Shown here in pieces: positions 12,467 to 16,114 of a stretch of DNA of 64,000 nucleotides. The translations under genes and the position numbers were made by a program. Source of the DNA: Neolewinella aurantiaca (GTDB lineage Bacteria > Bacteroidota > Bacteroidia > Chitinophagales > Saprospiraceae); NCBI RefSeq assembly GCF_008014675.1, contig NZ_VOXD01000012.1, positions 1 to 64,000 on the forward strand, given 5' to 3'. The stretch's first letter is position 1. Every line of letters starts with the position of its first letter. Below the pieces are notes generated by a model. That model was given only the letters and a program-made list of their open reading frames with translations. It made no database searches and had not been told where the DNA came from.

Positions 12467-13723
12467 TCAGCGTAGTTTTAAGGTAAGAATGGTTGCTACC
12501 GCGAGGAGAAGGCCTACGATCCAGAACCTGATCACGATCTTGGTTTCGGGCATCCCTTTCTTTTGGTAGTGGTGATGTAATGGTGACATGAGGAAGATCC
12601 GTCGGCCTTCCCCGTATTTCTTTTTGGTGTATTTGAAGTAGCTCACCTGCATCACTACGGAGAGGTTCTCGATCACGAAAATCCCGCACAGCAGCGGCAG
12701 CAGCAGTTCTTTGCGTAGTAGTATGGCAAGCGCGGCAATCATACCTCCCAGGGCAAGTGACCCGGTATCGCCCATGAAGACAGTTGCCGGAAAGCCATTG
12801 TACCACAGGAAGCCGAGGCAGGCTCCGAAAAGGCAGGCGCTGAAGATCACCAGCTCCTGCGTACCCGGCAGGTGAAGAACCCCGAGATAGTTCGCCGCGA
12901 TAGCATTGGAGCTCACGTAGGCGAACACGCCGAGTACCGCCGCAATGATCGCCGAAACTCCGGTCGCTAATCCGTCCAGCCCGTCGGTGAGGTTCGCCGC
13001 ATTCGACACTGCCGTAACGATGAACACGATAAAGGGCACAAAAATGATCCACACCAGCGAAGCACCGATGTTGAAGATGTTATCGTAGGCGATGTGGCTG
13101 TTCTTGATGAAAGGAACGTTGGTCAGGGTCGTGCGGTAGTTTGCGCGTTCCATCGTCTTACCATTGGCAAGAACTGTGGAAGTCGCCTCCCCTACCCGAT
13201 CTTCGGCGGTGAGTTCCAAAGCTTCTGCTTCTTCTACCGTCATCCGTACGGTTACCTGCTCGCTAAAGAGCATTACCAGTGCGATCAGGATGCCAAGACC
13301 GATTTGCCCGGCGATCTTGAACTTACCGGCCAGACCATCTTTATTTTTACGCTTGATCTTCAGGTAATCATCAACAAACCCGATTGCCCCCATCCATACC
13401 GTTGCAACGAGCATGGTGAGGAGGTAAACATTGTTCAGCTTTCCCATCAGCAGGCAGGGAACCAGAATAGCCAGCAAGATGATCACACCGCCCATGGTGG
13501 GAGTCCCTGCTTTCTGAGCCTGACCGTCGAGGCCAAGGTCGCGTACCGACTCTCCCATCTGGTGACGCTGAAGCATCTTGATGATCCGGTTACCGAAAAG
13601 CATGCTGATGACCAGGCTGAGGATAATTGCCACGCCAGCCCGTACGCTCAAAAAGTCGAACAGATTATTACCAGGAAAGTCTCCCAGAACGGATTCCAGC
13701 CATTTGAACAGACTAACTAGCAT
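12467..13723 (-). CDS. mraY: Phospho-N-acetylmuramoyl-pentapeptide transferase MraY
   Basis: MraY couples UDP-MurNAc-pentapeptide to undecaprenyl phosphate, forming lipid I in the inner membrane. The 418-residue protein has about ten hydrophobic helices and the catalytic motifs VDDYLKIKRKNKDGL, NAANLTDGLDGLA and FMGDTGSLALGG, and ends with the HHHYQKKGMPE loop. It is longer than the ~360-residue enterobacterial enzyme because of a charged ~60-residue periplasmic insertion (EEAEALELTAEDRVGEA) between helices, a Bacteroidota trait. The start overlaps murE by 11 bp. Confidence 0.97.
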   Translation of the reverse strand: MLVSLFKWLESVLGDFPGNNLFDFLSVRAGVAIILSLVISMLFGNRIIKMLQRHQMGESVRDLGLDGQAQKAGTPTMGGVIILLAILVPCLLMGKLNNVYLLTMLVATVWMGAIGFVDDYLKIKRKNKDGLAGKFKIAGQIGLGILIALVMLFSEQVTVRMTVEEAEALELTAEDRVGEATSTVLANGKTMERANYRTTLTNVPFIKNSHIAYDNIFNIGASLVWIIFVPFIVFIVTAVSNAANLTDGLDGLATGVSAIIAAVLGVFAYVSSNAIAANYLGVLHLPGTQELVIFSACLFGACLGFLWYNGFPATVFMGDTGSLALGGMIAALAILLRKELLLPLLCGIFVIENLSVVMQVSYFKYTKKKYGEGRRIFLMSPLHHHYQKKGMPETKIVIRFWIVGLLLAVATILTLKLR

Positions 13724-15995
13724 AATTGCGGGTATTTAGTGCGGTGGCTAATTCCAATTTATCGTTGAAGGGCAGGCGCTCTCCTTTGATTTCCTGGTAG
13801 GTTTCGTGGCCTTTGCCAGCAACCAGAACAATGTCCTGTGGCCTGGCAAACTGAACTGCGGTACGGATGGCACTGCGGCGATCCGTGATGCGCAGGGTTT
13901 TCTCTTTTTGCATCGAAGTGGTCAGGCCAGCTTCCATGTCGTTAATAATCGTTTCGGGATCTTCTGAGCGGGGGTTATCGCTGGTCAGAATTACCCGGTC
14001 GGCAATTTTTGCCGCCAATTGCGCCATCAGCGGGCGCTTCGTTTTGTCGCGGTCTCCCCCGGCACCAACGACACAGAGTAACTGAGCATCGGTCGCCAGA
14101 AGATCACGAAGGGTTGTGAGTACGTTTTCGAGCGCATCGGGCGTATGGGCGTAATCGACAACGGCAGTAACGAGCCCTGCTGGGTCCGTGACGTAGTCGA
14201 GCCGGCCGGCAGCAGCCGTCAGGCTGCTAATTGCCACGAGTACTTCGTCGCGTTCCTGCCCCAGTTCCATCGCTACCCCGAAGGCAGCAATGAGGTTGTA
14301 GGCATTGAACCGACCGATAAAGCGGGTGAACACCTCCGTTCCGTCCAGCTCGAGTTGCAAGCCCTGAGCGGAGTTGCTCAGCACTTTGGCGCGGTAATCC
14401 ACCAGCTTGCGCAGGCTGAACGCCAGCTTGCGGGCTTTGGTGTTTTGCAGCATGAACTGGCCGTTCTTATCGTCAGCGTTTACGAGGGCGAAGGCCGTTT
14501 TCGGGAGTTGATCGAAGAACCCCTTCTTAGCGTCGCGGTAGGCCGCGAAGGTCTCGTGGTAATCCAGGTGATCGTGGCTCAGGTTAGTGAAAACACCGCC
14601 GTTGAAGGCGAGGCCGCAGGTGCGATGCTGGCTTACGGCATGGCTTGACACCTCCATGAATACGTAGTCGCAGCCGGCATCCCGCATTTCCGCAAGGAGA
14701 GCGTTGACCGACAGCGCATCCGGGGTGGTATGCGTAGCGGTTTGCACCTCGCTGCCAACCCGGATCTCTACGGTCGAGAGCAACCCGGCTTTGTAGCCCA
14801 GGTTGGTGTACAAATCGTGCAACAGGGTGGCAACGGTCGTCTTACCGTTGGTACCGGTGATACCGACAAGGGTAAGATCCTGGCTGGGGTTGTGGTAGAA
14901 CTCTGCGGCTGTTTGGGCCAGGGCTTTGGCCGAGTTTTTTACCTGGAGATACGTTTCCCTCTCCCCCGGCCCCTCTCCTCGGGAGAGGGGAGACGAGGCA
15001 GACGTGAGTGCTTGCTCTCCCATTCTGTTCTCCTCCAGCTCCTCTTTTCGGGAATCGGGAGACGAGGCAGACGTGAGTGCTTGCTCTCCCATTCTGTTCT
15101 CCTCCAGCTCCTCTTTTCGGGAGTCGGGAGACGAGGCAGACATGAGTGCTTGCTCTCCCATTCTGTTCTCCTCCAGCTCCTCTTTTCGGGAATCGGGAGA
15201 CGAGGCAGATGTGGGTACGCCGTAGTAGACTTCCGTTGGGTACGGGAAGGGGCGGCTTTCGCGCTCGTCCAGTATGGTTTTGATCTTAGCTGCAACTTCA
15301 GATGGCTGAGCTAAAACTTCTTCGTTAGTAAAGCGAATTACCTTATAGCCTACAGACTCAAACTTTCTAGAGCGTTCTTCGTCGCTCCAATACATTTCTG
15401 GTGTTTCGTGGTAGCCGCCATCAACTTCAACGATTAGTCGTTTTTCAAAAAACACAAAGTCTGCAATAGCGTATCCCATCGGTCTTTGACGGTATACTTT
15501 ATAGCTAAGTTGGTTGGCTCGGATTTTGCCCCACAGTACTTTCTCTGCGGGGGTCGGAGCGCTGCGCATTTTCTTTGCGTAGCCTAAAATGGTTTGTGCA
15601 TGCGCTTCAGGCAATGACCAGTAAGTTTTGGTCAGTTCCCCAACAGCGAACTCTTCTTCCGCAGCACCTCCGACACCAAAGCCGTCTCCCCTCTCCCGAG
15701 GAGAGGGGCCGGGGGAGAGGGAACGAACAGAGGGGGTTTCATTGCTATCCGAACCTCCCCCCGCACCTGCGTCCGCGCCCACAGGCAGCTCTTCGCAAAT
15801 AATTGCCGTAGCACCAAGCTCAATCGCCTTGGCTATGTAATCGTGCCCGTCGACCTGCGTACCGCGAACGGCAACAAACAGGCAGCCCGGGACTGCTTTT
15901 CTTGAATCAAAAACCACGCAACTCACCCCACGACCGGTCACCTCGCCAACAACGGCAAGGGGATGAATCCGATCAATGATTTGGGTAAGTTGCAT
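13713..15995 (-). CDS. murE: MurE ligase (meso-DAP-adding) with an internal DUF559 nuclease domain
   Basis: MurE adds meso-diaminopimelate to UDP-MurNAc-L-Ala-D-Glu in the cytoplasm. All MurE parts are present: N-terminal UDP-binding residues 1-71 (DSRKAVPGCLFVA), the linker TYLQVKNSAKAL (~348-359), ATP loop GITGTNGKTT (378-387) and the C-terminal DNPRSEDP motif that reads meso-DAP. The protein is 760 residues instead of ~485 because residues ~73-346 are an in-frame insertion: a family A repeat, a GC-rich inverted repeat, a DUF559 domain (~125-245), three 23-residue repeats and the second inverted repeat. It joins domain 1 at a loop. The gene is expected to be essential and overlaps mraY by 11 bp, so the insertion must be tolerated. 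No intein motifs are seen. Confidence 0.95.
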   Translation of the reverse strand: MQLTQIIDRIHPLAVVGEVTGRGVSCVVFDSRKAVPGCLFVAVRGTQVDGHDYIAKAIELGATAIICEELPVGADAGAGGGSDSNETPSVRSLSPGPSPRERGDGFGVGGAAEEEFAVGELTKTYWSLPEAHAQTILGYAKKMRSAPTPAEKVLWGKIRANQLSYKVYRQRPMGYAIADFVFFEKRLIVEVDGGYHETPEMYWSDEERSRKFESVGYKVIRFTNEEVLAQPSEVAAKIKTILDERESRPFPYPTEVYYGVPTSASSPDSRKEELEENRMGEQALMSASSPDSRKEELEENRMGEQALTSASSPDSRKEELEENRMGEQALTSASSPLSRGEGPGERETYLQVKNSAKALAQTAAEFYHNPSQDLTLVGITGTNGKTTVATLLHDLYTNLGYKAGLLSTVEIRVGSEVQTATHTTPDALSVNALLAEMRDAGCDYVFMEVSSHAVSQHRTCGLAFNGGVFTNLSHDHLDYHETFAAYRDAKKGFFDQLPKTAFALVNADDKNGQFMLQNTKARKLAFSLRKLVDYRAKVLSNSAQGLQLELDGTEVFTRFIGRFNAYNLIAAFGVAMELGQERDEVLVAISSLTAAAGRLDYVTDPAGLVTAVVDYAHTPDALENVLTTLRDLLATDAQLLCVVGAGGDRDKTKRPLMAQLAAKIADRVILTSDNPRSEDPETIINDMEAGLTTSMQKEKTLRITDRRSAIRTAVQFARPQDIVLVAGKGHETYQEIKGERLPFNDKLELATALNTRNYAS
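14952..15725 (-). mobile_element. DUF559 nuclease module with inverted-repeat ends, inside murE
   Basis: The left end 14,952-14,994 and right end 15,684-15,725 are near-perfect inverted copies of a 42-43 bp GC-rich sequence, differing by one T in a T-run; each is itself palindromic. Between them the murE frame encodes a DUF559/VSR-like domain (15,261-15,623) with the hallmark TPAEKVLW, IADFVFFEKRLIVEVDGG and RFTNEEVL motifs. Candidate catalytic residues Asp179, Glu190 and Asp192 are intact. The module is 774 bp, exactly 258 codons. Known: DUF559 proteins belong to the PD-(D/E)XK-like Vsr fold. Inferred: a nuclease-bearing mobile module settled in a permissive MurE loop. Confidence 0.75.
14991..15212. 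repeat. 69-bp tandem repeat in murE
   Basis: The motif AGACGAGGCAGA recurs at 14,991, 15,060, 15,129 and 15,198, exactly 69 bp apart: three full units and a partial fourth. It encodes the 23-residue unit SASSPDSRKEELEENRMGEQAL plus one variable residue. Units differ at only a few bases, implying recent expansion, and the length keeps the frame. The first unit merges with the left inverted repeat of the DUF559 module. Confidence 0.9.
15761..15780 (-). repeat. Family A repeat copy within murE
   Basis: On the coding strand GGGCGCGGACGCAGGTGCGG encodes VGADAGAGG (residues 72-80) at the exact point where normal MurE sequence ends. It lies 36 bp outside the right inverted repeat of the DUF559 module, so the insertion looks composite: repeat first or last, nuclease module beside it. 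Confidence 0.8.
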
Positions 15996-16114
15996 GGTTA
16001 AAATAGTTATCTGGTATCAGTAAAAAGGAAAAAATGGTTGCAAAAAATTAGTAATTGAGATTCAACTCGTATCCTTATTGAATCAGTGTCTTTTGGGATT
16101 TTGATCTATGGGCG

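Follow-up and report, generated by a model that had tools for sequence, protein, structure and literature searches.

A DUF559 nuclease element with REP-like inverted ends, in frame within murE of Neolewinella aurantiaca

The single murE gene found in the bacterium Neolewinella aurantiaca contains, in frame and in the coding sense, a block in which a DUF559 nuclease domain is bracketed by two inverted hairpins that resemble repetitive extragenic palindromic (REP) sequences. The gene lies within the first 64,000 nucleotides of contig NZ_VOXD01000012.1 (assembly GCF_008014675.1), the stretch analysed here and called the window. Comparison with other genomes shows i) a REP-bounded structure, ii) repeated in-frame insertion in the sense direction, iii) empty alleles, iv) host switching, v) a conserved active site, and vi) a murE host part under selection; we consider it probable that the block is a homing-endonuclease-like element with REP boundaries, maintained unspliced as a domain lodged in permissive loops of essential enzymes. 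By the usual account, homing nucleases depend on a splicing vehicle to get into coding genes; the nuclease described here, with its REP-like ends, repeatedly occupies single-copy essential enzymes that bear no splicing signal.

The interrupted murE frame

The murE gene is a single uninterrupted frame of 760 aa on the reverse strand (13713-15995), in which Pfam places Mur_ligase at residues 25-69, DUF559 at 138-242 (E 6.8e-27), Mur_ligase_M at 379-575, and Mur_ligase_C at 597-729. Mur domains thus flank the nuclease on both sides, in keeping with the claim of a first-pass annotation, made from the letters alone, that the MurE motifs are complete; the overlap with the next frame that it described (mraY, by its name) is also retained, murE ending at 13713 and the next frame starting at 13723 on the same strand. 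The same annotation had outlined a 774-bp block with inverted repeats of 42-43 bp; the inverted repeats are real and their dimensions need correction, for they are perfect arms of 41 nt each (14955-14995 and 15683-15723, 100% complementary, 687 nt apart), and the block measures 769 bp from repeat to repeat. Both arms are open in all three coding-direction frames, and in murE they are translated as SLSPGPSPRERGD and SPLSRGEGPGERE.

Features of the element and its host, in window coordinates:
13713..15995, - strand: murE open frame with in-frame element, 760 aa (frame call and domain scans)
15789..15923, - strand: MurE N-terminal domain match, residues 25-69 (Pfam)
14955..15723, coding strand -: element, repeat to repeat, 769 bp (inverted-repeat search)
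15683..15723, - strand: REP-like arm on the N-terminal side, 41 nt, translated within the murE frame (inverted-repeat search)
15270..15584, - strand: predicted DUF559 nuclease domain with catalytic Asp179, Glu190, Asp192, and His196 (Pfam, profile, model)
14960..15216, - strand: tandem 69-bp units that adjoin the C-terminal-side arm and partly coincide with it, 23-residue repeat ASSPDSRKEELEENRMGEQALT/M (repeat search)
14955..14995, + strand: REP-like arm on the C-terminal side, inverted copy of the other arm (inverted-repeat search)
14271..14861, - strand: MurE central domain, residues 379-575 (Pfam)
13809..14207, - strand: MurE C-terminal domain, residues 597-729 (Pfam)

A MurE search of the 6.0-Mb source genome found no second murE, the other of its two matches being the DUF559 part of metH; removal of the domain aside, the interrupted MurE must therefore function. 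Between the source genome (G000) and the nuclease-free G204, the host part of murE differs by 0.057 nonsynonymous (dN) and 1.19 synonymous (dS) substitutions per site, and it is under strong purifying selection. As a separate observation, the tandem 69-bp units adjoining one arm (119-nt windows begin at 14960, 15029, and 15098) derive partly from the arm, and an element in a dnaE intein (L158/L246) likewise has tandem arm-like repeats.

The nuclease

Both the profile and the fold model of the element's DUF559 match the homing endonuclease I-Bth0305I and Vsr, and the block is predicted to encode a nuclease of the Vsr/EDxHD type with conserved D/E/D/H residues. The Vsr-like fold proposed at first pass is consistent with these matches, which also strengthen the analogy with homing that was drawn there; Asp179, Glu190, and Asp192, said to be intact, are present at exactly those positions, with His196 next, and the catalytic residues are conserved in the elements. 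DUF559 is the sole domain that Pfam finds within the murE element. A link between DUF559 and EDxHD homing is not new. A Vsr-like homing endonuclease family was reportedly described by Dassa et al. in 2009. DUF559 genes have already been assigned to the EDxHD homing family in PMC9403480. Close phage or plasmid relatives were not found: among 50,697 phage records 3 match, and among 72,556 plasmid records 39, all at <60% identity; a defence-system label was rejected when PADLOC returned none.

Filled and empty sites in the genus

The source genome has three matches to PF04480 (DUF559), in open frames of 767, 1307, and 1484 aa; the two besides murE lie in frame within ileS and metH, each with its own hairpin-like inverted repeats. 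Across 21 genomes of Neolewinella there are 14 matches in 10 genomes, of which 13 (in 9 genomes) are strong, and all 13 sit within host frames: metH (6), murE (2), ileS (2), murC (1), a metallophosphatase (1), and DnaE (1). The fourteenth (G226) is a weak (34.5 bits), distant, stand-alone protein. Records of N. maritima and N. lacunae, apparently two of the 21 genomes, have the same in-frame architecture, in metH and dnaE. The N. lacunae dnaE gene has an intein (L246:2-4609), and there the DUF559 element occupies the endonuclease position.

Most relatives lack the insert at the corresponding sites. MurE is matched in 18 of 19 genus genomes, 2 with DUF559 and 16 with short linkers that vary among genomes. 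In metH, where the insert separates the B12 cap domain from the B12-binding domain, the site is filled in 6 of the 17 genus genomes with a metH match, and the 11 empty sites have 35-59 residues between two conserved anchor motifs; the empty site of G211 bears REP-like letters, with a weak arm model score (18.4 bits, E 0.013). IleS is matched in 20 of 21 genomes, with 2 filled sites and 15 empty ones read directly (the site pattern missed ileS of G199, G203, and G207); the ileS element takes the place of about 13 host residues between SMPYAQW and FPADFIAEG, and the same break is found in another genus of the family (G146).

Host genes beyond the genus

A wider scan applied the single motif [VI][VI]E[VI]DG[GA][YI]H to genome contigs and kept the best 80 of at least 557 matches, a sample biased to close relatives. 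Among these best 80, the frame reaches at least 300 aa in 64; host residues extend for more than about 140 on both sides of the nuclease in 47 (mostly leuS, ileS, and metH), on the C-terminal side only in 15, on the N-terminal side only in 2 (both frames cut at the locus end), and on neither side in 16. Hosts recognised by family scan, BLAST, or motif are leuS (two sites), ileS (two sites), valS, metH (two sites), murC, the dnaE intein, purL, MmeI, methylmalonyl-CoA mutase, DegT aminotransferase, Lhr, RdgB, and others, and, counting those named by family scan or BLAST, at least 14 families of host genes have internal insertions. Further hosts from the family survey are mnmE (two genomes), a second-domain metH site, and restriction-system genes, most of them read from translations; the names miaB, recG, valS, trmH, CCA/HD, type I restriction subunits, and L036 (mnmE) were likewise read from translations and not from the family scan. 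A different arrangement recurs in Prevotellaceae, where guanylate kinase and IspF frames are extended at the N terminus by DUF559 (L252, L257, L266-L268, L272, L274, L300, L319).

In a phylum sample of 247 genomes, 102 have DUF559 at E≤1e-15; among the best 150 matches listed, 37 are in frames of at least 300 aa (two of these from the source genome). Most of the genes listed are thus in short frames, and the intragenic habit belongs to part of the DUF559 family.

REP-like arms

The arms of 10 genus elements (18 arms) give the consensus nCCTCTCCCCCGGCCCCTCTCC-nnn-GGAGAGGGGAG, a hairpin with a loop of 3 nt, and the elements measure about 480-770 bp between arms. Similarity is higher between the two arms of one element (0.895) than between elements (0.779; 10 of the 13 genus elements), and loops are identical in 6/10 pairs within elements vs 2/145 pairs between elements; the two arms therefore change together. 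By eye, the arms of the ileS lineage are a separate type, common to G000, G200, and G146, and are unlike the arms that the same genome has in murE and metH.

Inverted repeats flank DUF559 well beyond the genus. In a family-wide survey of 82 strong DUF559 genes (matches of at least 80 bits, less 8 duplicate loci), the flanking inverted repeats of 57 exceed the best of 50 shuffles; with a tighter search span, inverted repeats are found at 52/77 DUF559 genes vs 4/283 shifted control positions (all with at least 200 nt of flank), and scores ≥40 at 31/77 vs 0/283. A covariance model of the genus arms, run at E≤0.1 on 80 named loci, 3 of which (L245-L247) are apparently, or nearly, records used to build it, finds both arms, inverted, at 31 and one arm at 18, with none misoriented; loci from Flavobacterium, Prevotellaceae, and a Myxococcales bin are among those matched. 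Inverted arm pairs also occur without space for DUF559, for example at G199 C46:77074/77221 and G205 C2:289551/289691. At the level of whole genomes, arms are found in 9/9 genus genomes with strong DUF559 vs 6/12 without (p 0.019), an association that we take to be weak because arms of 8 of the 9 genomes with strong DUF559 went into the model and because the genomes are related to one another.

Two further repeats of the source genome deserve mention. A miniature inverted-repeat transposable element (MITE) of about 140 bp has inverted ends GTGTGTATCACGAGATGCAC / GTGCATCTCGTGATACACAC, 9-bp target duplications by eye, and one REP-like arm in its middle (L337-L341, L344-L348, L352-L354); 13 of 25 arms checked in 20 regions of the genome lie inside this MITE, and 4 in another repeat. 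The 16-17-mer GCACCTGCGnnCGCGCC is highly iterated, with 1479 genome matches (two mismatches allowed) vs 11 for a reversed control and 19 copies in the window (three mismatches allowed) vs 0.32 expected; one copy (15763-15779) stands in murE beside the insert, others in the window are at e.g. 9218, 28955, 34545/34585, 50374, and 52376, and further copies occur in metH and ileS. We presume a resemblance to HIP1 or to a DNA uptake sequence.

Nuclease trees and movement

In a tree of 91 DUF559 domains, the genus elements minus the ileS pair form one clade (support 1.0) in which the metH copies are scattered: the murE element of the source genome pairs with a metH element (G193, 0.89), and another metH element (G202) with the metallophosphatase element (G225, 0.95). 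The latter pair is retained (93) in a 97-row tree with named genomes, from which three genus rows apparently identical to records L245, L246, and L247 were omitted. Host labels on the 97-row tree require 43 changes over 32 groups (minimum 31; shuffled mean 71.6), including 7 for the 9 rows of metH site 1 and 5 for the 18 rows of leuS site A; the two rows marked '?' read, by motif, as leuS (L293) and valS (L303). Host labels thus cluster on the nuclease tree, yet with repeated host switches. Two other genomes of the family hold pairs of similar copies: two of about 530 bp, 89% alike and with unrelated flanks, in G149, and two of 618 bp, 97.6% alike, in G042. Since dS is saturated between elements, no dN/dS ratio can be given for them.

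Because the sites are empty in most relatives and the nuclease tree mixes hosts, the elements must have moved. The mobile nuclease module postulated at first pass, entering genes at permissive loops, thus gains support from filled and empty sites at murE, metH, and ileS, from the many Bacteroidota hosts, and from hosts that do not follow the nuclease tree.

A proposed explanation and its rivals

We suggest that a gene for a Vsr/EDxHD-type (DUF559) nuclease, set between two inverted REP-like hairpins, would form a compact mobile element; that it entered MurE, sense and in frame, at a loop joining the N-terminal domain to the central one; and that it is probably read as part of MurE, there being no sign in the sequence of splicing at the RNA or protein level. 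By analogy with homing, the nuclease may drive movement: it would start transfer by cutting a REP-like hairpin or an allele that lacks the insert, and repair of the break would copy the REP-nuclease-REP block, the hairpins serving as nuclease recognition or end signals. The arms may encode flexible Pro/Gly/Ser/Arg linkers and so allow the host protein to tolerate in-frame entry. An essential gene would protect the element that resides in it, because only precise loss leaves the host alive. Such a logic of persistence would be that of inteins minus splicing.

Several observations weigh against this explanation. Among the 13 genus elements, the murE copy of G200 has no recognisable arm pair; no significant repeat flanks 25/82 family DUF559 genes, and neither arm is found at 31/80 named loci at E≤0.1; arms occur in the 6 genus genomes without strong DUF559 mentioned above, one of them 55% complete; and the single-strand hairpin of the murE arm is not more stable than shuffles (z -0.37). 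The 86 arm matches in the source genome were rejected as a measure of REP spread, since an unrelated MITE multiplied one arm copy and inflated the count, 25 places matching the MITE junction with ≤3 mismatches. The solo arm presumed to lie in the G204 murE rests on inspection by eye, the arm model finding none, and no target-site duplication was seen by eye at the two same-genome copy pairs of the family (G149, G042). The nuclease trees rest on about 100 columns, and the 97-row tree leaves the place of the source genome's murE element open, with 41/93 inner branches open. Nor is there a near-identical pair across two host genes of one genome: eight genus domain pairs are 53-66% identical, so that no very recent gene-to-gene jump has been caught.

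The most serious rival, which we think unlikely, holds that the nuclease is a passive passenger: the arms would be recombinogenic repeats spread by a Y1 HUH transposase of the REP-associated tyrosine transposase (RAYT) kind, or by another factor, and DUF559 would be cargo (e.g. an enzyme of restriction type or of Vsr-like repair) that recombination between arms carries along. Y1_Tnp matches are indeed present in 20/21 genus genomes (70 listed), arms do persist in half of the 12 genomes without strong DUF559, and a Caulobacter DUF559 protein has been proposed, in PMC12907096, to be a Vsr-type repair enzyme. RAYT as owner of the arms was nevertheless rejected, for the arm model, run at 10 of the 70 Y1_Tnp loci listed, matched at none. 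G213 has arms and element with no Y1_Tnp match, and six genomes with Y1_Tnp matches have no arm match. Arm type, moreover, tracks nuclease lineage by eye (ileS elements, two genera), and the nuclease, the only domain found in the element, keeps its catalytic residues. That MurE and other enzymes instead gained DUF559 as a useful added domain, kept for host function, would fit the conserved frames and catalytic residues and the recurrent ispF and gmk N-terminal extensions of Prevotellaceae; we judge such domain accretion very improbable given the patchy presence at the same site within the genus, internal insertion in so many host families, inverted repeats at the element ends, and one insertion inside an intein. 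An assembly or annotation artefact is hardly credible: the G200 murE copy is truncated at a contig edge and the arms are repetitive, whereas separate assemblies (N. maritima and N. lacunae included) share the architecture in metH and dnaE and host frames are open on both sides. Chance or artefact is unlikely because all 13 strong genus copies sit in host frames and because of the inverted-repeat control.

The homing-like, REP-bounded element that we prefer invites a broader proposition, on which our judgment is evenly balanced: a splice-free homing class, in which an EDxHD nuclease recognising REP-like hairpins spreads REP-nuclease-REP blocks through Bacteroidota housekeeping genes, stays as a permanent domain of the host enzyme (MurE-, MetH-, or LeuRS-nuclease), and yields dispersed non-autonomous REP-like repeats. 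If true, this would be a third way, beside introns and inteins, of living inside essential genes. The repeated residence of these nucleases in essential enzymes would in itself account for puzzling DUF559 inserts in aminoacyl-tRNA synthetases, MetH, and Mur ligases; point to a non-HUH enzyme behind a REP-like repeat family; show in which loops an essential enzyme can accommodate an entire additional domain; and open the origin of REP-like repeats to testing in Bacteroidota.

Comparison with known elements

Intein and RNA intron readings of the murE block were both rejected. Pfam gave no Intein_splicing match at E≤1 in murE, and no intein model appears among the 25 rows listed of 30 from NCBIfam; for dnaE, the same domain libraries do detect intein blocks. 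A scan of 13600-16100 with Rfam at E≤1 yielded three matches; no intron is among them, and each falls far short of its gathering score. The first-pass statement that intein and intron features are lacking agrees with these scans. Like inteins, the element sits in frame within essential genes, which tolerate no loss of it but a precise one; inteins have a splicing domain and murE has none, and, to judge by the sequence, the product retains the additional domain. Nor does Pfam find in the murE frame the transposase domain of an insertion sequence.

EDxHD/Vsr-like homing endonucleases such as I-Bth0305I share with the element the Vsr-type fold, the catalytic D/E/D/H residues, and the existence of occupied and empty alleles at one site, but here there is no splicing vehicle in murE, the ends are REP-like and inverted, and one genome has several unrelated host sites filled. 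I-Bth0305I is also described, in PMC3943268, as having an extended DNA-binding part, whereas Pfam finds no extra DNA-binding domain in the murE element. The REP/TnpA-REP systems (REPtrons, RAYT) offer the likeness of an enzyme gene between inverted REP-like hairpins, with related single or paired hairpins elsewhere in the genome and arms that vary with enzyme lineage (by eye); their enzyme is an HUH Y1 transposase, of which Pfam finds none between the arms here, where a Vsr-type nuclease stands in its place, and the genus elements reside in coding genes.

The nearest in-frame precedent, to judge from passages of PMC10969869, is the Rickettsia palindromic elements, which are palindromic, lie in frame in many unrelated metabolic genes, and are translated with the host protein, a likeness that holds here at the level of the reading frame only; they are about 150 bp long and encode a conserved peptide, with no nuclease mentioned in those passages, whereas the genus elements carry a conserved nuclease in their much longer span between arms. 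A search of open-licence literature found no description of REP-bounded or in-frame intragenic DUF559 elements, and within that literature we call the element new in kind, since for every known kind at least one defining feature does not fit.
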